64,000 nucleotides of DNA from Bryobacterales bacterium (lineage in GTDB: Bacteria; Acidobacteriota; Terriglobia; Bryobacterales; Bryobacteraceae). The notes under the pieces are model-generated. The model had not been told where the DNA came from. It saw only the letters and a list, made by a program, of their open reading frames with translations, and did not search any database. How positions within the stretch are numbered: the first letter of the stretch is position 1; every line of letters starts with the position of its first letter. Made by a program: the position numbers and the translations under genes. Below are positions 9,658 through 47,014 of the stretch, piece after piece. The stretch is taken from assembly GCA_019261985.1 (NCBI GenBank), contig JAFAQY010000114.1, positions 1-64,000 on the forward strand. Reading direction: 5' to 3'.

Positions 9658-10611
9658 CTACGGCGCAAGTGAGCCGGCATAGGCCGCCAGCGCAATCATA
9701 TCGTCGTCATTGAGCTTTTCCACCACCTTCTTCATCAGCGCGGCGGCGCTGCTGCTGTTCGCGCCGGTTTGGAAATTATAAAGCTGGCGGACGATGTAGA
9801 TGGGATGAATCCCTGCGAGCCGCGGCACGTCTCCTAAACCCTTTAGGCCGTCGCCGTGACAAATGGCGCAACCGATCGTTTTGCCCGAGCCTCCGCCAGC
9901 CAGCGCTTCGCCCTTCTTTATACTTCCGGGCGGGACATAGGCCATGAAACCCGAGCGCGGGTCGCGCAGCTCCACTCGCGCGGCGTCCTGCGGCATGGTT
10001 ATGATCCGGTTCCCCAGCGGTTCGGTCCCGCCGGATGCCAGCGGAAGCCGCATGCGTCCTCCATTCACCCACGACTTCGGAACGGTCTGCGCTTCCTCCA
10101 CCTTGTACCAGGGGATCGGCTTCAACGCGGCGAACCACTCGATGGCCTTGCGCATTTCTTCATCCGGCAGCCCTGCGGCGATAATGTTCATTCTCGCCGC
10201 CCGGGCGGAAGTCTCATGGATCTTGGGGTCTTTCCGCAAGCCGTTTTTGAAATCCTCCATTTGGCGAATCATGTACGCTTCGGGAAGCCCGGCAAGAGTT
10301 GCGGATTCGGGATGGCCCATGCCCGACATCAAATGGCACGACCCGCAAGCCTGCGCCTGAATGCCCTTTTGAACCACGCTTGGCAGCGGACCGTGTCGAT
10401 CGGGGAACCAGTCGGGCGGATTGAATTGATCATCGATTTGCGCCTGGGTGTAGGACCGCGCGCTGCCTTCCAGCTTCTTGGGCGCGTTATCGGCAGCCGT
10501 TGACGGACTGGGATCGGGAACGGGGTATGCCCAAATCAGTTCCTTGCCGGCTTGCGCGCGAAGGCCGCCAACCAATACCAATGCCGTAAGCGCGCATTCG
10601 AGTTTCTTCAT
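9658..10611 (-). CDS. Diheme c-type cytochrome
   Basis: This 317-residue exported protein has a signal peptide ending near LRAQA. Two heme c attachment sites are visible, ACGSCH (about residue 90) and GCAICH (about residue 255). Each is followed by a PRLAGIHP/ATLAGLPE-type segment and a YI-RQ helix, the layout of tandem class I cytochrome c domains such as FixP- and NorC-like pairs. It probably transfers electrons in the periplasm. It lies in a minus-strand run with a second cytochrome upstream (10 bases away) and the DoxX-LSGIW gene downstream, so co-transcription is likely. Confidence 0.85.
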   Translation of the reverse strand: MKKLECALTALVLVGGLRAQAGKELIWAYPVPDPSPSTAADNAPKKLEGSARSYTQAQIDDQFNPPDWFPDRHGPLPSVVQKGIQAQACGSCHLMSGMGHPESATLAGLPEAYMIRQMEDFKNGLRKDPKIHETSARAARMNIIAAGLPDEEMRKAIEWFAALKPIPWYKVEEAQTVPKSWVNGGRMRLPLASGGTEPLGNRIITMPQDAARVELRDPRSGFMAYVPPGSIKKGEALAGGGSGKTIGCAICHGDGLKGLGDVPRLAGIHPIYIVRQLYNFQTGANSSSAAALMKKVVEKLNDDDMIALAAYAGSLAP

Positions 10612-10620
10612 AAACCCTCC

Positions 10621-11283
10621 TCAGTCCTGTTTCCGCTTGCGATACATCTTCAGCGATTCGAGCTGGCCGCGAACCACATTGTTCGGCTCGATCTCAAGCG
10701 ACTTTTCATAATACTGAATCGCTGTCTCGTCGTCGAACTTGCGCGTGTATGCGTAACCGATGGCCGCGTAACTCCGGGCGGACTTCGGATTGTATTCAAT
10801 ATTCAGATTCAACAAAGCAATGGCGTCATCCGGCCGGCTGGTTGTGATTCGTTGCGCCAGGCTCAGCAGCGTATCTTCGCTGAAGTCGTACGCCTCGCGG
10901 GCATAGAAGCGTTCTCGCAGATCGCGATATTGCGCGGCCGCTGCCGCCGCTCCCTTCGTGCGCAGCGTCTGCATGAGAATGTCGGCGATCTGCCGCGGGA
11001 TGGGAACGCCGTGATGGCAGGTGACGCATTCGACGTTCGCCGATGTGTTGCCGGTGATTTGCTGCACGCGAGTATTCAACTCGCGCGTCATCGTCATCAT
11101 CTGCCGCGCGATGTCCTTCTTCGGCTCCGGCTGCCCGCTCCCGCGCTCAGCCGAATGGCAGTAATTGCACGTGACGCCGAGCGCTTGGGCGATCGAGGGC
11201 ATGGTGGACCCGATATCGGCGGGCGGAGCCTGGGCGCCTAGCAGCCCGCATCCGGCGAACAGGGAAAGCGTAGCCAGCCTCAT
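10621..11283 (-). CDS. Multiheme-type cytochrome c with TPR domain
   Basis: The protein has 220 residues from the ATG at 11283. Earlier in-frame codons lie inside the palindromic repeat and are not plausible. The N-terminus (MRLATLSLFAGCGLLGAQA) is a signal peptide, possibly a lipoprotein signal with LFAGC. Heme sites VTCNYCH (about residues 39-45) and VECVTCHHG (about residues 86-94) show two hemes. The second half contains tetratricopeptide-like helices (DDAIALLNLNIEYNPKSARS, YAAIGYAYTRKF, AIQYYEKSLEIEPNN). It may be an electron carrier or scaffold at the outer face of the membrane. It sits ten bases upstream of the diheme cytochrome gene. Confidence 0.8.
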   Translation of the reverse strand: MRLATLSLFAGCGLLGAQAPPADIGSTMPSIAQALGVTCNYCHSAERGSGQPEPKKDIARQMMTMTRELNTRVQQITGNTSANVECVTCHHGVPIPRQIADILMQTLRTKGAAAAAAQYRDLRERFYAREAYDFSEDTLLSLAQRITTSRPDDAIALLNLNIEYNPKSARSYAAIGYAYTRKFDDETAIQYYEKSLEIEPNNVVRGQLESLKMYRKRKQD

Positions 11284-11320
11284 ACTCGTGCAGAACAGTA
11301 TATCGAGACTTCTAAAAATT

Positions 11321-11429
11321 GTGGGGCAGGTTGCCAACCTGCGCGCGATTGCTAATCGCGCTGGGCGGGGTAGGGAAAAGGTCGGCAGGCGGGTTGGCAA
11401 CCCGCCGCAGGATGGCATCCTGCCCCACA
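11321..11429. repeat. Palindromic intergenic mosaic repeat
   Basis: This is a full-length member of the window's repeat family. It runs gtggggcaggttgccaacct, then gcgcgattgctaatcgcg, a spacer, ggcgggttggcaacccgcc and gcaggatggcatcctgcccc. The ends are inverted relative to each other. It fills the gap between the genes starting at 11283 and ending at 11437. Confidence 0.85.
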
Positions 11430-11436
11430 GAGCCGG

Positions 11437-13005
11437 CTACTTCTTCGCGGCGGCCGCGTCCTTCAGAGCCTTTAGATGCGGCAGATCTTGATCTTCCTCG
11501 TGGCACGCGGATTCGATCAGATCGCCCTTCTGGCGCCGGATCGGATAGGCGATGGTCCACGGCCGCGTATATACTACGGGATCCGTCACGGTTGCCTGGT
11601 AGTTGATGGTGTCGGGACCAGCTGGAGTGAATCGCTCCACAATATGCTCGGCATAGCTTATGACCTCGCCTCCCTCGTTCAGCCAGGTCTTTCCGTTGAA
11701 ATTCGTGGTATCGACAACCAGCGTGTCACCCTCCCACCAGCCGATTGAATCGCCTTGCCATAAACGCATATTTTCCGGCAGGTGAGCGCGGGCATCGAAT
11801 GCCGGCAGAATGCGTACGATGCGCCAAGACACGCGCTCATGTAGAAACACGACGGCATCCGAGGTCTGAAGGATCTGAAACGCCGATGGCACATACAGCG
11901 ATCGCGGAATACCCGCGGGAAAACAATGCGCCGTGGGATCGTCGTACCCGCGCTCCGTCAGGTTGCGGCTCGCCACCTCCTTCACGGCCCACGGCTGCAT
12001 GGGAAGCTTTCCGTCGGGTGGATCGACAATTCCGCGCGTCGCTGCACCATTGCCGCCGCGCCGCGCCTCCAGGCCCTGATTTGCTCCGCCGGCGTTCGTC
12101 TCCCACAAGCCTTGAAAATCCGGCTTGCCGTCGGGCTTGCGAACAACGTTGGCCGCCGCAGCCGCGGCAGCCTGGGGCCGTGCTGCGGTGGCCGTGCTCA
12201 TCGCGGGAGGTTTCGTTCCACCCCCCGGATACCACGTCCGTTCCTCTCGCGTAAACGCGCCATTGGCCTCTTCCACTTCCGCCTGGCAGACGTACTCGAA
12301 GAGCCGGGTGCGATCGGTTCGCCGTTTCAAAGGAACACGGATGGTCCACGGCTTCGTGAACACCTTCGAGTCTTCTATCGTCGCTTCGTACTGGATCGTG
12401 TCCGCATCGCTCATGTGATATCGCTCGACGACTTTGAGCGCATCGCTATGAAAGTCACCTGCCGTGTCGAACCAGGTTTTGTCGTTGTGATTGGTGACGT
12501 TCACCACCAACGTGTCGCCCTCCCAATGGCCGCGTGAATCGCCCATCCAGAAGTTCAGGTCGGGGAACGGTGAACTGCCGTCCGTATAGATCAATCGATA
12601 ATCCAGCGACCACTCGAATGTCATGGCCATCGCCTCAGGCGTCTGGAATATCTGAAACGGAAAATCCATATACATGATCCGCGGAACGCCCGGCATGAAG
12701 CATTTGTTTAACGGATCGGCATTCTGGCGGTTTTTGAAGTTCTCAGCTTTCTTCGCGGCCGCCCACGCCTGATAGGGAATTTCGCCGCCGACCACAACCG
12801 AGCGGCCCGCGAGCATGTTGAAGGCAGCAGCGTGGTCCTGAAGATCCGCCGCCGCAGTGCTCGACGCTTGCCATATTCCGGCAAAATTCGGTTTACCGTC
12901 GGGCGTGCGCGGAATTGACTCCTGCGGAAGGGCGCTTTGCGCGGCGGCGATTAGTCCGCCGGTCAGGGTCGCAACTGCAATGAGCATGAGCTGGCGAGTA
13001 CGCAT
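11437..13005 (-). CDS. Secreted protein with two tandem LSGIW-type domains
   Basis: This 522-residue protein has a signal peptide (MRTRQLMLIAVATLTGGLIA...). Two copies of the same domain follow. Copy one begins DGKPNFAGIW (about residue 36) and includes KCFMPGVPRIMYMDFPFQIF and HWEGDTLVVNVTNHNDKTWF. Copy two begins DGKPDFQGLW (about residue 293) and includes HCFPAGIPRSLYVPSAFQIL and GWWEGDTLVVDTTNFNGKTW. Each copy ends with an acidic/Cys tail. The duplication is in one gene. The single-domain relative at 50042 and the membrane-fused one at 8397 give four copies in this window. Function is unknown and no catalytic motif is recognised. Confidence 0.8.
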   Translation of the reverse strand: MRTRQLMLIAVATLTGGLIAAAQSALPQESIPRTPDGKPNFAGIWQASSTAAADLQDHAAAFNMLAGRSVVVGGEIPYQAWAAAKKAENFKNRQNADPLNKCFMPGVPRIMYMDFPFQIFQTPEAMAMTFEWSLDYRLIYTDGSSPFPDLNFWMGDSRGHWEGDTLVVNVTNHNDKTWFDTAGDFHSDALKVVERYHMSDADTIQYEATIEDSKVFTKPWTIRVPLKRRTDRTRLFEYVCQAEVEEANGAFTREERTWYPGGGTKPPAMSTATAARPQAAAAAAANVVRKPDGKPDFQGLWETNAGGANQGLEARRGGNGAATRGIVDPPDGKLPMQPWAVKEVASRNLTERGYDDPTAHCFPAGIPRSLYVPSAFQILQTSDAVVFLHERVSWRIVRILPAFDARAHLPENMRLWQGDSIGWWEGDTLVVDTTNFNGKTWLNEGGEVISYAEHIVERFTPAGPDTINYQATVTDPVVYTRPWTIAYPIRRQKGDLIESACHEEDQDLPHLKALKDAAAAKK

Positions 13006-41963: not shown

Positions 41964-42373
41964 GTGTGCTCAGTATGACTTGTAATTCAAGGGGTGAAAG
42001 TCCCCCATGGACCGTTAATGACCGGAACCATCCGTCTAGGCAAGGGTGTCCGCCGCGAGGCGGAATCTGAAGAAAGCTGATGACGAAATCGCGGATTCGA
42101 CGTACAGGAAGCGGATACAAGGCCTTGCAGCGTGGGGTCACCCGGCCAGGGACGGGGAAGCCCAATAGTCATTCGGAACGCGGCGCGGTAGATCCGACGA
42201 GTCTGCGCGAAGAAGACAGGTCTTACCTGAGGAGATCTTTGCTGTGGTCCGTACACACCGGACTACCGCACGGGCAACCGGGCGGGATAGCAGCAGAGAA
42301 GTCAGCAGAGGTCATAGTAGCCCAACCCGGCGAAGGACCGAATCTTTAATGCAAGGAGCAGAGGGAAATTTCG

Positions 42374-43745
42374 ATGAACGTGGGGCAGCAGAAAGGCCAG
42401 GAGCACCACGACGACCAAGAGGCGGACGGAACCCGTCCTCCCTCGTCGGGGACGCAGCAAACGTTCACGGCATTCGACTCACAACGAGCCTTGACAGTCC
42501 ATTTGAGCAGATATGCGACCCCAAGAACCTTGTTCGCGCCTACCGGCGGGTTCGCTCCAACAAGGGAACGCCAGGCGTGGACGGCATGACCGTTGACGCA
42601 CTGGCCGACTGGCTTCGGCAACACAGTGCGGCGTTGACGGCTTCGCTAGCAGAAGGGACCTACCGGCCCCAACCCGTACGCGGAGTGCAGATCCCGAAGC
42701 CGGGAGGAGGACAACGCCAGTTGGGCATCCCCACGGTTGTGGATCGTCTGGTTCAACAGATGATTCTGCAAGTACTGGAGCCCATCTTCGATCCCACCTT
42801 TCCCAACTCGAGCTACGGAATCCGTCCGGGACGCAGCGCCCACATGGCGCTGGAACAGGCGCGGCAATACGTAAATCGGGAAGGACGCGAGTTTCGTGGA
42901 TCTCGACCTGGAGAAGTTCTTCGATCGGGTGAATCACGATATCCTCATGTCCCGAATCGCGCGCAGGATCGGCGACAAACGCCTGCTCCGGATCATTCGG
43001 CGCTTTCTCCAGGCCGGCCTGATGCAGGAGGGGGTGTGCGTTACCCGCGACCAGGGAACTCCACAAGGTGGGCCGCTCTCCCCTTTGCTGGCCAATCTCC
43101 TGCTTGACAATCTGGACCAGTTGCTGGAAACCCGGGGACATCGCTTCTGCCGCTACGCCAACGGTGCAACATTTATGTGCGTCACTGACGGCAGGTCAGC
43201 GAGTGATGGAATCGGTGATACGGTTTCTGGAAGGAAAACTCAAGCTCCGAGTGAACCGGGAAAAGAGCGCCGTGGCGCCGGTTGGGCAACGCAAGTTCCT
43301 CGGCCATCGGATTCTCTTGAACGGTAAACTCGGGATCTCGTCCCAAAGCGTTGATCGCGCCAAGGACAAGATCCGGCAGATTACTCGTCGCGACCGGGGC
43401 GTGAGCTTGGCGCAGGTCATTGTCGAACTGAATTCGTTTCTGCCTGGATGGATCGCCTACGACCGCCATGCGGCCTGTCGGTTCCAACTCCAATGCCTGG
43501 ACGAATGGATTCGGCATCGTCTGCGTTGCTACCGCCTCAAACAGCGCAAGCGCGGTCGCTCGGTGGCGGGATTCCTCCGCTCACTCGGCGTGTCCGCGAT
43601 GCACGCAGCCCGTCTGGCCTCCTCCGGAAAGGGTTGGTGGCGTTTATCCAACTGCCCACCGGTCAAAGCGGGGTTGTCTAACGCATGGTTCCACTCCCAG
43701 GGTCTCGTTTCCCTGGTCCTCAAGTATGACTCGTTACACCATTAA
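42374..43745 (+). pseudogene. Inactivated group II intron reverse transcriptase/maturase
   Basis: A start at 42374 (MNVGQQKGQEHHDDQEADGT) has a GGAG box upstream. The protein then runs through different frames. RAYRRVRSNKGTPGVDGM and FPNSSYGIRPGRSAHMALEQ lie in one frame. VDLDLEKFFDRVNHDILMSR and TPQGGPLSPLLANLLLDNL are in a second frame, after a shift near 42890. RVNREKSAVAPVGQRKFLGH and the maturase domain (WWRLSNCPPVKAGLSNAW) are in a third, after shifts near 43170-43190. The catalytic YADD box reads YANG at 43154-43165, so the active-site aspartates are lost. No endonuclease domain is seen, as in class C enzymes. Confidence 0.88.
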
Positions 43746-43818: not shown

Positions 43819-43951
43819 CGCGCGATTGCCAATCGCGCCGGCACACAAAAGGTCACCGCAATAATTTCCGCACCTCGGCACACCAGAGGCACACAAGCCA
43901 ACGAAGGAATCAACCCACCTTCATCGACTTCCCTGTAAGTATTGAATCTTT

Positions 43952-43973
43952 GGTGCTGGAGGTGGGGTCGAAA
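43952..43973 (-). repeat. tRNA-Leu 3' end copy (att-like site)
   Basis: tggtgctggaggtggggtcgaa repeats the CCA end, acceptor strand and T-arm start of the tRNA-Leu at 46926-47014, in the same orientation, lacking one G of the run of five. Similarity stops immediately after. It marks the left end of the island. Confidence 0.8.
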
Positions 43974-44148
43974 GCCGGAACGCCTCGAAACCAAGGAAGC
44001 TTCTGTTCTAAAGACGGACAGAAAAGCCGAAAGCGCTGGACAGGCAGATCTGTCGCACGTGTACCGCAGACCACCACTGATATACATGTTAACGGCACCC
44101 GAAAAACTGGAAGTTTTGAATCTAGCGAACCTCTGGCCACGGCATATC

Positions 44149-44493
44149 TCAGAATCCGGTTCTTACGCACTTGTCGCTGACAACTCGATTCCCATCGCGG
44201 AGGGCGTATCCGAGCTTGATGAGAATAGCTACCGTCTTCTCGTTGGGGCTTTCAACGAGGAACCGGTCTCGAATTGCATCGGCATACGATTCAACCCAAT
44301 ACTTCACAGCGGTGCTCGCATGTCCCTTGCGGCGCTCTTTTGGAACGATGTAGATCTGGTTAAGGATGCAGATCTTGTTTCGTAGCGATCTTCTGTCAAA
44401 TTCCCGAGCAAGTATCCGAGGTACTTGGACCGGGCGATACTCAAGAACGTGCTGGGAGAATCCCGCAAAATTGCGAAAGTCACGGTTACTTGC
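44149..44493 (-). pseudogene. GNAT acetyltransferase-like fragment
   Basis: In the same frame as the end of the DUF262 gene, and directly after its stop, a frame of about 114 residues runs to 44149. It includes LEYRPVQVPRILAREFDRRS, LNQIYIVPKERRKGHASTAV, KYWVESYADAIRDRFLVESP and ILIKLGYALRDGNRVV. The V-P-x-x-R-R-K-G-H-A block fits the acetyl-CoA loop (R/Q-x-x-G-x-G/A) of GNAT enzymes. No start codon is evident, so it is either the 3' part of a lost gene or starts in another frame. Confidence 0.5.
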
Positions 44494-45391
44494 TTATGGC
44501 GTCGCGGCGGCTTGGCGGGCGAATTTGCTAAACCGACGCGTTAGGCTCCTAAAGCGTCCCTCGTGGCTTTTGACGTCGCCCGTGCTGCGGTTCAATCTGT
44601 CGTATTGCAGAAGCTCCTGATCAAGGTCCTCGTCATTCGGATCGGCGGTCGCCCGGGCTCGGTTTGCGCGACGCTCAGAATCAAGGCGGACTAGAAATTC
44701 GCGAATGAAGGGAAAGTCCCCGGTGGACCTGCTGCGAATGAACCAGTAGTAAACGGCGAAAACTCCGGCCGAGCTCAGCAGCTTGTCACCAGGCAGGAAA
44801 ATCTCGCTCATGCTGTCGAGAACGTCTACGACCTTACGGGCGGCGAGTTCGAGGCCCTTTGTGTCTCGGACGCTATCGGTCACAAACTGGTCAAGGCTCC
44901 CCTTTTTTGTTTCTTTTGTTGCGCCAGAGTACTCGAAGTATAAGAGCTTGGCCGCCGCGTTCAAATCCTGCCCGCGCGTCATGGTGAATGCAACGTTCTC
45001 AAGAAACAGGTCGTGTCTTGCTATTTGGCGGAAGAGCTGAGGGGCCGGCCCCGACATCGCATTGCGGATCTCTGCGCCGGTGAGCGGCTTGCTGGGGTTC
45101 AGCCGCACAAACAGTTCGTGAATCGGAACGTCACTTTTGCCAACGACCCGCATAGCTTCTGGCTGTGAAGCGGTGAATCTCCCCAAGTAAAATCGGCCAC
45201 GTAGATCTTGGGGACGTCGAATCCGTTCAATATGGAATCGATCAAATACTGCTTGTCGGTCACGGACCAAGGCGGCCTCGTCTTTGATATGGCGGGTCCA
45301 TATCAATTTTGTCTTGCCGGTTGCGCCACCACGTCAGCGTGTGGGGCTCCATCTGTTCAACCTTAAAATCTTTCTTTTGTATTTCTGCCAT
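44494..45391 (-). pseudogene. DUF262 (GmrSD-type) protein gene, frameshifted and internally deleted
   Basis: The start MAEIQKKDFKVEQMEPHTLT at 45391 leads to MDPPYQRRGRL, the N-terminal DUF262 signature. A shift near 45265 puts WSVTDKQYLIDSILNGFDVP and KIYVADFTWGDS in another frame. After a further shift and the loss of the region that should hold DGKQR, the third frame gives HELFVRLNPSKPLTGAEIRN and AARKVVDVLDSMSEIF to the end. DUF262 is the nucleotide-dependent, ParB-like part of modification-dependent nucleases such as GmrSD. This copy cannot be functional. It starts four bases after the FRG gene. Confidence 0.75.
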
Positions 45392-45395
45392 CGAA

Positions 45396-46234
45396 TTAAT
45401 ATTCGAACCCAAAATCTCGCTTGATGTCCTTGGACAGACCCTCAAGGTCCGGAAAAACGACGGATTCGGTAATACCATTCTTCAGAATGGATCTGCGCAT
45501 CGCAGGCAGCACATCGCGCCTGAGCATAACCTTTTGGAGGCATGAAGCTGGAAAAGGCTCCTGCTCGTAGGCGTCCTCCATGGCTTGGGTGCTCTGCCCG
45601 AAGATGACGAAGCAACCGCGCTGAGCGACGATTCGGGGACTGTTGTGAGCACCATAAATCGCGACCGGATGCACGTTCATGTCCGGAAACCGCGTAAGGG
45701 GCTTATAGCTCTGCAGGGCTTCTCTGATGGCATCAGAATGCCGCGATCGAAACGTCGCTGTCTCAACGCATGCCTATTCCAGGCGACCGGATCGAGTATC
45801 CACACAGCGGCATCGGAAGAAAATGTCAGCACCGGGTTGGCACCCGCCAGCTTGCCGGAAAAGGGGCTGGACATTATCGCAAAATATAAGCCGATCAGAG
45901 GGTTCTCCGTCCAGTCGAGTAGCCGCGTCGGGATTCCGTAATGCTGCATGAAGAAAAGATGGTCCCAGTTGTCGGCCAAGGCACGAGTCATAAATGGGAT
46001 GCTTCGCTGCTGGAATCGCATCATCAGGTTTCGCTCAAGCAATTCGAGGTCAACCACAGCATGTTCTCGGGCATGACGGTAAAGAGTGGGAAGCAGGTTA
46101 TATGTTGCCTTGCCCGCACCGCGGAACCATAACGGGCCCTCAGCGCGCTGGCGACGTTCGACTAGCCTGACAAAGTCCTGGAACGAATTTGGGCACATTT
46201 CAGGCACGGTGTGCGCTTGTGTATTGCTACTCAC
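45396..46234 (-). pseudogene. FRG-domain protein gene with a frameshift
   Basis: The frame 46234-45677 encodes the FRG core: PLWFRGAGKATYNLLPTLYR (the Phe-Arg-Gly motif), MQHYGIPTRLLDWTENPLIG and LYFAIM, AVWILDPVAWN. It ends 185 residues in. The frame ending at 45396 supplies the expected C-terminal part (VAIYGAHNSPRIVAQRGCFV, ILKNGITESVVFPDLEGLSK). It is open upstream to about 45720 and overlaps the first. One indel near 45720 would restore a protein of about 279 residues. FRG proteins are of unknown biochemical role and occur in accessory regions. Confidence 0.8.
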
Positions 46235-46539
46235 GTTTTTCAGGCCAGTTTAACATTGCCCCAAGCGGCAAGGGCAAGCAGGAATCGAAATCACTAAATC
46301 AACCGCGTTCTTCACCAGTGGAAATTTCGTACGTAATCGCTGACAATCTGCTTCAACTCGCATTCCAGTCAGCAGCGGTGAGCTGTCTAAAACAGAATTG
46401 CTCACAAATGTATTATGCCGCCCCAAGACATGATGAGGTGGAGGCTGGGCGGTTGAAACTCCAAGTGATACGAGTATTCCGGTTGTGGTGGGCGCAAAGG
46501 TCACTGGCGAAGCGATCTGCCGGGTGGATCCGGATATCA

Positions 46540-46840
46540 ACGCAGCGAATCGATTCAATGGCCGCGAAGTGCCTCAAATGCGTTCCGCTGCCTGCTGGCA
46601 CATCCGCCGAGACAGAATGTTTTTTCGGGACCGGCCTAGGTGCGCGGGATGGCCATATCAAAACCGTGCGCTCGTTCAAAGCGATACTTTCCAAAACGGA
46701 GTTGCGAACGCCCATGCTCACGATTTCCGCCATACCGCGGACACGGAAATCCTCGCGAAGGGTGGTGCCATCTTTGGGCGACTCGCCCCAGATCATTCGC
46801 AAGCACTACATAAATGATCGCGCGAATTTTAGACCCGGAC
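46540..46840 (+). pseudogene. Tyrosine recombinase (integrase) C-terminal remnant
   Basis: Three frame segments line up with the catalytic end of a tyrosine recombinase: CFFGTGLGARDGHIKTVRSF, then NAHAHDFRHTADTEILAKGG (the H-x-x-R box), then LGDSPQIIRKHY (the nucleophile Tyr). They lie in two alternating frames, so at least two indels are present. The N-terminal part is not recognisable. Its position 90 bases from the tRNA-Leu 3' end fits the integrase of the element that used this tRNA as attachment site. Confidence 0.65.
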
Positions 46841-46925
46841 GAAGGCGATTTTGGCTCAAGTTCATGGCGCGTACACGTATCCCGAAATTTAACGCGCGCA
46901 ACTCCGATTTTTGCAATACATCCGA

Positions 46926-47014
46926 TGGTGCTGGAGGTGGGGGTCGAACCCACATGACCAGTGAAGGTCGCGGGATTTTGAGTCCCGTGCGTCTGCCAGT
47001 TCCGCCACTCCAGC
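46926..47014 (-). tRNA. tRNA-Leu (anticodon CAA)
   Basis: The reverse complement gives an 89-base class II tRNA: acceptor GCTGGAG/CTCCAGC, anticodon stem CGGGA/TCCCG around CTCAAAA (anticodon CAA, reading UUG), a long variable arm, T-arm GTGGGTTCGACCCCCAC and encoded CCA. Its 3' end is the attachment site of the neighbouring island. Confidence 0.95.

Follow-up and report, generated by a model that had tools for sequence, protein, structure and literature searches.

A decayed gene pair beside a tRNA-Leu gene

The 64,000 nucleotides analysed here, called the window throughout (positions 1 to 64,000 of contig JAFAQY010000114.1, assembly GCA_019261985.1, from a Bryobacterales bacterium), contain next to a gene for tRNA-Leu(CAA) about 3 kb of broken genes, among them the remains of a gene for an FRG protein followed by a gene for a DUF262 protein. 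The question raised by this locus is whether the two genes lie together by accident or are what is left of a gene set that is intact elsewhere and, if so, what such a set might do. The original prediction, made from the letters of the window, took the pair for a dead copy of an undescribed defence or conflict module. This is strongly supported by our results, as FRG followed by DUF262 proved to be a recurrent and mostly full-length two-gene unit, and the two names occur together in no paper found in the literature searched. Most subscription papers lie outside that literature and the pair may be described there; a broader search for FRG together with ADP-ribosyl and phage gave no mention of DUF262 either.

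The closest intact sibling found, locus L162 from the same phylum, has adjoining genes for an FRG protein of 273 amino acids and a DUF262 protein of 366 amino acids. The pieces in the window were placed against it as follows.

45731 to 46234, minus strand: FRG pseudogene, N-terminal piece with the FRG domain (PF08867, E 1.3e-22, 81 bits against a cut-off of 25)
45396 to 45722, minus strand: FRG pseudogene, C-terminal piece in a second frame (46% identity to residues 166-272 of the L162 FRG; PADLOC PDC-S15, E 7e-16)
45269 to 45391, minus strand: DUF262 pseudogene, N-terminal piece with PPYQRRG (54% identity to L162 residues 1-41)
45153 to 45269, minus strand: DUF262 pseudogene, middle piece (69% identity to L162 residues 42-80)
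44521 to 45177, minus strand: DUF262 pseudogene, C-terminal piece with the FxRLN motif and helical domain (51% identity to L162 residues 137-357, E 9e-71)

The PF08867 match was found in the frame 45677-46234 (minus strand) and the PDC-S15 match in another, 45396-45680, the frame switch falling near 45723-45731 by comparison with L162. The reading frame of DUF262 changes at 45269; in all, the gene lies in three frames and lacks any counterpart of L162 residues 81-136, a stretch of about 56 codons which holds the nucleotide-binding DGKQR/DGxQR motif. The FRG stop codon occupies 45396-45398 and the Met codon of DUF262 ends at 45391, which confirms the spacing of four bases that had been predicted. 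The description as a dead copy is also borne out, FRG being frameshifted and DUF262 both frameshifted and deprived of its nucleotide-binding segment; judged by these lesions, the system in the window is dead. Membership of the FRG family is indicated by the PF08867 score of the N-terminal piece, and the FRG proteins of L028 and L029, two loci used as search seeds, are above the same cut-off. NCBIfam gave no match for the pair. Relatives of the window DUF262 are rare, being found in 4 other genomes among 200 of the order, 1 other among 396 of the phylum and 1 plasmid record.

Recurrence of the pair

The DUF262 proteins of three relatives were aligned and used to scan the genomes of about 85,000 species, with DUF262 alone and no reference to FRG. 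The pattern matched 160 stretches, 97 of which encoded a DUF262 relative, and the best 80 of these 97 were used. A search with an FRG profile found FRG directly upstream and on the same strand in 79 of the 80 loci, L139 being the single locus without it. The seeds L028 and L029 recur in the set with identical DNA as L066 and L063; the count for the others is 77 out of 78. Chance adjacency of FRG and DUF262 is ruled out by these numbers, obtained as they were in a scan that used DUF262 only. The spacing between the two genes is -4, that is, an overlap of four bases, in 54 of the 79 pairs and lies between -11 and +9 in 74. The open reading frame (ORF) of FRG measures 230-300 amino acids in 71 of the 79, so that most frames are full-length, and at a few loci it is cut at a contig end or split in two frames (e.g. 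L071 and L121).

By record title the 80 loci span 13 named bacterial phyla; one further record, not placed in any of them, bears the label of an archaeal bin. Many of the loci come from metagenome bins. A plasmid of Hymenobacter volaticus is annotated with the pair, and in a collection of viral contigs all eight DUF262 loci (L154-L161; two are identical, so seven are distinct) have FRG upstream. The check that the original prediction had proposed, whether FRG directly upstream of DUF262 recurs, was thus answered positively in genomes, viral contigs and one plasmid. Some prophages or phages may have the pair among their genes, to judge from the viral-contig loci.

Fold and motifs of the two proteins

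The AlphaFold model of FRG, made from 71 sequences, has a predicted local distance difference test score (pLDDT) of 91.5. Residues 44-246 align with structures of the ADP-ribosyltransferase (ART) fold, the best being TreX (Z 6.2) and Tpt1 (6.1), with values of 4 to 6 for toxin-type ARTs. All 27 structures listed with Z of at least 5 have the ART fold, and the structure at rank 44 does not. Six residues (R51, H105, T110, R111, D114 and Q201) are invariant in the 71 rows and position 116 is Ser or Thr throughout; the FRG-motif arginine and the stretch TRLLDW[ST] are invariant or nearly so. This arginine, R51, is presumably level with the catalytic NAD-binding arginine of several ARTs, if the alignment starts without a gap. 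When solved structures were searched by sequence, nothing useful was returned for FRG or DUF262.

By its modelled fold FRG would belong to the ART superfamily, and this agrees with PMC9503650, where the sections available place Frg in that superfamily, among signal-generating enzymes, as a possible NADase effector. A predicted activity is therefore already in print, and the earlier statement that FRG has no known activity does not stand. FRG is also already a PADLOC candidate, PDC-S15. At L031 (663-1823, minus strand) a different arrangement was seen, namely a 386-amino-acid FRG protein with a C-terminal SET domain (PF00856, E 5e-10), a fusion without DUF262.

The DUF262 model, made from 74 sequences (pLDDT 93.5), matches BrxU (Z 8.0, root-mean-square deviation (rmsd) 10.9) and SspE (7.5), then ParB/Srx proteins and DndI (5.2, rmsd 15.6). 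The motifs QR, DGxQR and FxxxN are invariant in 74 of 74 rows. PF03235 was matched in L028 and L029 with E about 1e-17, which assigns these proteins to the DUF262 nucleoside-triphosphatase (NTPase) domain of the GmrSD type. DUF1524 gave no match in the same two proteins at E up to 5, and the modelled protein ends after its helical region.

The company kept by other DUF262 genes was seen from annotation around 21 of 74 plasmid and phage records with DUF262 relatives (68 plasmids, 6 phages), a hand-picked sample and no census, in which the DUF262 proteins are 23-38% identical to the paired kind. The same-strand neighbour is FRG in one record, SIR2 in two, a HEPN-type nuclease in four, a protein kinase in two, DUF3696 plus another gene in three, and something else or nothing clear in nine. 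FRG lies before DUF262, and the SIR2, HEPN, kinase and DUF3696 genes come after it. Several of these DUF262 genes also have a DNA methyltransferase gene next to them. Given partners as varied as SIR2, HEPN, kinase or DUF3696 genes, DUF262 appears to be a sensor whose effectors can be exchanged.

Two of these arrangements may be described separately. A SIR2-family gene begins one base after DUF262 on plasmids of Sinorhizobium and Hymenobacter (L186, 3965-5867; L190, 3965-5843), a NAD-consuming type of partner in the place of FRG, and a protein-kinase gene overlaps DUF262 on plasmids of Asticcacaulis and Pseudanabaena (L195, 2450-4592; L199, 2441-4685).

Gene neighbourhood and divergence

Gene clustering around the 80 pairs, with the longest ORFs taken as neighbour genes (some of them spurious), showed a C5-methyltransferase at 23 of them, an endonuclease of the Eco29kI family at 13, a Vsr endonuclease at 11 and any of the three at 24. 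The next cluster, of mixed transporter-like ORFs, is present in 9 loci and all others in at most 4. Pfam confirmed Vsr in the three of its 11 members that were tested, and RE_Eco29kI in L028 and L030. RE_Eco29kI was also matched by 6 of the 74 genes nearest upstream and by 4 of the 77 nearest downstream. It is the only Pfam family in at least two nearest upstream neighbours among the families listed, which number 25 for each side and can be judged only when present in at least two neighbours. Downstream, among those listed, DNA_methylase occurs three times and AAA_15, AAA_21, HATPase_c and HAMP twice each. The PADLOC tallies of nearest neighbours cover 25 of 118 and 25 of 214 families.

The number of methyltransferases exceeds by far what the host genomes would provide. 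About 28 C5-methyltransferase genes were counted in about 117.7 Mb of 22 host genomes (merged by hand, those linked to pairs included), and the flanks around the 80 pairs total 756 kb, for which about 0.2 loci are expected against the 23 observed. The other 56 pairs have no C5-methyltransferase, Eco29kI or Vsr gene in the flanks, which extend to 6 kb at most and are shorter where a contig ends; 48 of the 80 loci have 5 kb or more on either side. These 56 appear to be two-gene units that stand alone. None of these genes lies near the window copy either, or near its siblings L162 and L163.

At L029 an HD-domain gene (PF01966) and a small gene lie downstream of the intact pair and convergent to it (10125-11986, minus strand), possibly another conflict system. 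The small gene (10125-10673) had been thought DUF4065-like, which was not borne out, as it has no Pfam match.

A quick tree was made from 77 rows, to which L162, the Hymenobacter plasmid and the piece from the window belong. These three form a deep group with support 100, the depth of which is unsure since long branches meet there and the long rows L103 and L163 are flagged. In a clade of 17 rows (support 80) a C5-methyltransferase is nearby in 15, and 52 rows make up a mostly stand-alone clade (support 87). To explain the methyltransferase label on the tree, 9 changes or more are required, and 5 for that of the endonuclease; therefore the link with restriction-modification was gained or lost several times. 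The FRG and DUF262 distances at 69 common loci are correlated (r = 0.90), with none of 2000 permutations as high in a Mantel test uncorrected for host phylogeny, and this value is compatible with a shared host history of the two genes.

Proposed function and alternative explanations

A conserved operon, invariant NTPase motifs, fold likeness of both proteins, matched divergence and a C5-methyltransferase restriction link in part of the loci are the observations in favour of a role in defence. On balance we are inclined to suggest, with a confidence little above even, that intact FRG-DUF262 pairs are an anti-phage or anti-plasmid system in which a DUF262 sensor switches on a separate FRG effector of ART fold. 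The cargo of the integrative element in the window was a two-gene operon, FRG followed by DUF262. The DUF262 protein would act as an NTP-dependent sensor of the ParB/Srx type, of the kind found in GmrSD, BrxU and SspE, without a nuclease of its own, and may read the modification state or the structure of DNA. On meeting foreign DNA it would release or activate the separately encoded FRG protein, probably held in a complex with it, and FRG, as an enzyme of ART fold, would consume NAD+ or ADP-ribosylate a target, an activity expected to arrest the infected cell.

Several results weigh against this proposal. In 61 related genomes none of 19 other FRG loci has this DUF262 in the surrounding 1.5 kb or so, a distance that is shorter where a contig ends, and 134 plasmid records have FRG relatives against one with a close DUF262 relative. 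Besides the 56 pairs without restriction genes in their flanks, many have housekeeping genes as nearest neighbours, so that the defence-island context is partial. The best structural scores are modest for both proteins (below 8 for FRG, and Z 8.0 at a high rmsd for DUF262), and Foldseek with either model returned nothing at E <= 0.001. The canonical catalytic glutamate of ARTs was not located in FRG, the invariant Q201 being near the expected place.

A wider version of the same idea is put forward only tentatively. DUF262 without DUF1524 might be a general cassette for sensing DNA modification, combined with a swappable killer (FRG/ART, SIR2, HEPN, kinase or OLD-type), much as effectors are swapped in cyclic oligonucleotide-based antiphage signalling systems (CBASS). 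FRG-DUF262 would be the widespread ART arm of this cassette, and in the clade linked to restriction-modification it might guard C5-methylation restriction, the ART being turned on when restriction is breached.

The best surviving alternative, which we nevertheless regard as unlikely, is a toxin-antitoxin or addiction module in which FRG is a toxic ADP-ribosyltransferase and DUF262 chiefly its neutraliser, the pair serving to keep mobile elements or restriction systems and not sensing phage. The tight operon with its four-base overlap would suit such a module, as would the presence of the pair on a plasmid, on viral contigs and in an integrative element, and the frequent company of restriction-modification genes. 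However, all NTPase motifs are kept in every DUF262 row, which would be needless for a mere binder, and other DUF262 genes serve several unrelated effectors. In addition, Menshen and Dazbog lost their protective effect when the DUF262 gene was mutated or deleted, as stated in the available part of PMC10952713.

Still less credit can be given to the possibility that the pair is an accessory of restriction, working with the neighbouring C5-methyltransferase and Eco29kI, for instance by punishing lost methylation or inhibited restriction; the signal would then be a hypomethylated or anti-restriction state and not the chemistry of phage DNA. Restriction genes accompany the 24 loci mentioned above, and in L066, L067, L070, L072 and L074 methyltransferase, endonuclease, FRG and DUF262 stand in series on one strand. 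Against this stand the 56 loci, the window copy and the siblings L162 and L163, all without such genes nearby, and the repeated changes of the methyltransferase label on the tree, so that the association is not obligatory. A role of FRG on phosphorylated ends of RNA or DNA, the pair being a repair or end-modification unit with no lethal effector, is very improbable: Tpt1/KptA structures are among the best FRG fold matches (Z 5.0 to 6.1), but toxin-type ARTs match equally, several other DUF262 partners are SIR2 or HEPN effectors, and DUF262 is linked to restriction genes.

Boundaries of the element and neighbouring features

The other features of the element are the following.

46926 to 47014, minus strand: intact tRNA-Leu(CAA), boundary of the element (ARAGORN; Rfam tRNA match 46929-47014)
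43951 to 43967, minus strand: partial copy of the tRNA-Leu(CAA) 3' end, distal attachment-like repeat (17 nucleotides exact, 22 with one gap)
46519 to 46809, plus strand: C-terminal remnant of a tyrosine recombinase in two alternating frames (HDFRHT, LGDSPQIIRKHY), found by tblastn with the intact recombinase ORFs L178-L181
44152 to 44493, minus strand: GNAT-like C-terminal fragment, weak (PF00583, E 0.024, below cut-off)

The intact tRNA was found where it had been predicted. A repeat search showed that 43951-43967 repeats 46926-46942 exactly, in the same orientation and 2975 bases apart. Beyond these 17 nucleotides one base is missing and five more match, so the predicted 22-base copy holds with one gap. 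The chance of a given 17-mer in 3 kb is about 2 in 10 million by a hand estimate that assumes even base use. A tRNA 3'-end repeat that flanks an integrase gene is the mark of an integrative element targeting a tRNA, and with the 17-nucleotide repeat and the recombinase remnant both present, the 3 kb bounded by the 3' end of tRNA-Leu and the partial copy of that end are a decayed integrative element. In five relatives of the genus tRNA-Leu(CAA) has different neighbours, and neither an empty site nor a junction comparable to that of the window was found among them. The genome itself, a draft of 138 contigs and 6.49 Mb, holds no second copy of the island. Sequencing errors are possible in such a draft; because several independent lesions, including a lost segment, lie within 3 kb, real decay is far more likely.

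The predicted recombinase remnants beside the tRNA were recovered through relatives. The HDFRHT and IIRKHY segments, in alternate frames, match intact recombinase ORFs of 371-463 amino acids from the same bacterial family, with 68% over 25 amino acids (E 6.6e-9) in one frame and E 3e-6 to 5e-5 in the other, values which refer to a search of 701 bases only. Two of the four matching ORFs, L178 and L180, were tested and are Phage_integrase (PF00589), whereas Pfam gave no PF00589 match on the window itself. The resemblance to integrases, proposed earlier as a check, is thus found by way of the intact ORFs of family relatives; most rows of the initial search of relatives were at chance level.

The GNAT-like frame had been counted in the gene set. 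Its likeness to PF00583 is weak, and as a third gene of the module it was rejected: it does not recur with the pair, none is adjacent in L162, and among the families listed no acetyltransferase is present in two or more of the nearest neighbours, 77 of which lie downstream and 74 upstream.

It had also been said that all four genes are broken and the flanking core genes intact. FRG, DUF262 and the recombinase are broken, and on the right flank the ORFs for a helix-turn-helix regulator and a flavoprotein (UbiX-like) are open. The left flank does not fit, as the ORF of a group II intron there is broken too. This intron lies just left of the island, in the region 42049-43745 (plus strand). Its D1D4 domains were matched by Rfam at 42049-42227 and at 42263-42338, and the maturase/reverse transcriptase ORF is split across several frames.

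Comparison with known systems

The present DUF262 protein shares with GmrSD, BrxU and SspE the ParB/Srx NTPase domain with QR, DGxQR and FxxxN, and its model resembles the last two. It differs in having no DUF1524 match (L028, L029) and, as effector, a separate FRG protein. Its best PADLOC match is NsnA (E 4e-27), a gene name of Menshen. The DUF262-DUF3696 arrangement was seen with other DUF262 genes; as for an OLD-type nuclease, AAA_15 or AAA_21 occurs in 2 of 77 nearest downstream neighbours and, if at all, in one of the 74 on the upstream side. In the available part of PMC10952713 Menshen is given as DUF262 with an OLD nuclease, and PD-T4-2, Menshen and Dazbog are named as having DUF262 without DUF1524. 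The same part reports that DUF262 systems with separate effectors are antiviral.

PD-T4-2, described there as DUF262 with HEPN (PMC10952713), is alike in combining DUF262 without DUF1524 with a separate effector, and PADLOC PD-T4-2_A matches the present DUF262 with E 4.6e-13. The effector is different, being an ART-fold FRG protein encoded upstream, whereas HEPN lies downstream in the plasmid DUF262-HEPN pairs. No HEPN family is present in at least two nearest neighbours among the families listed, the near-constant partner being FRG. A further two-protein DUF262 system is GrwAB, according to the part of PMC12137116 available. PDC-S15 and the Frg proteins of PMC9503650 correspond to the FRG described here, which matches the PDC-S15 models and has an ART-like fold; the sections available of that paper make no mention of a near-constant DUF262 partner, and the 19 other FRG loci checked lack it within about 1.5 kb.

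FRG genes are common, as the 134 plasmid records indicate, and are annotated by a three-letter motif alone. A near-constant partner of known mechanistic class, in an operon found in 13 phyla, gives one branch of them a concrete function that can be tested. If the proposed system of DUF262 sensor and FRG effector is right, the DUF262-based defences would gain an ADP-ribosyltransferase arm, in which the sensing of modification is coupled to NAD+ chemistry and not to the cutting of DNA. The Eco29kI-type restriction genes beside part of the loci suggest a layered arrangement of restriction plus cell arrest. FRG alone was known as PADLOC PDC-S15, and DUF262 systems were known with other effectors; the pairing of FRG with DUF262 was not found in the literature searched.

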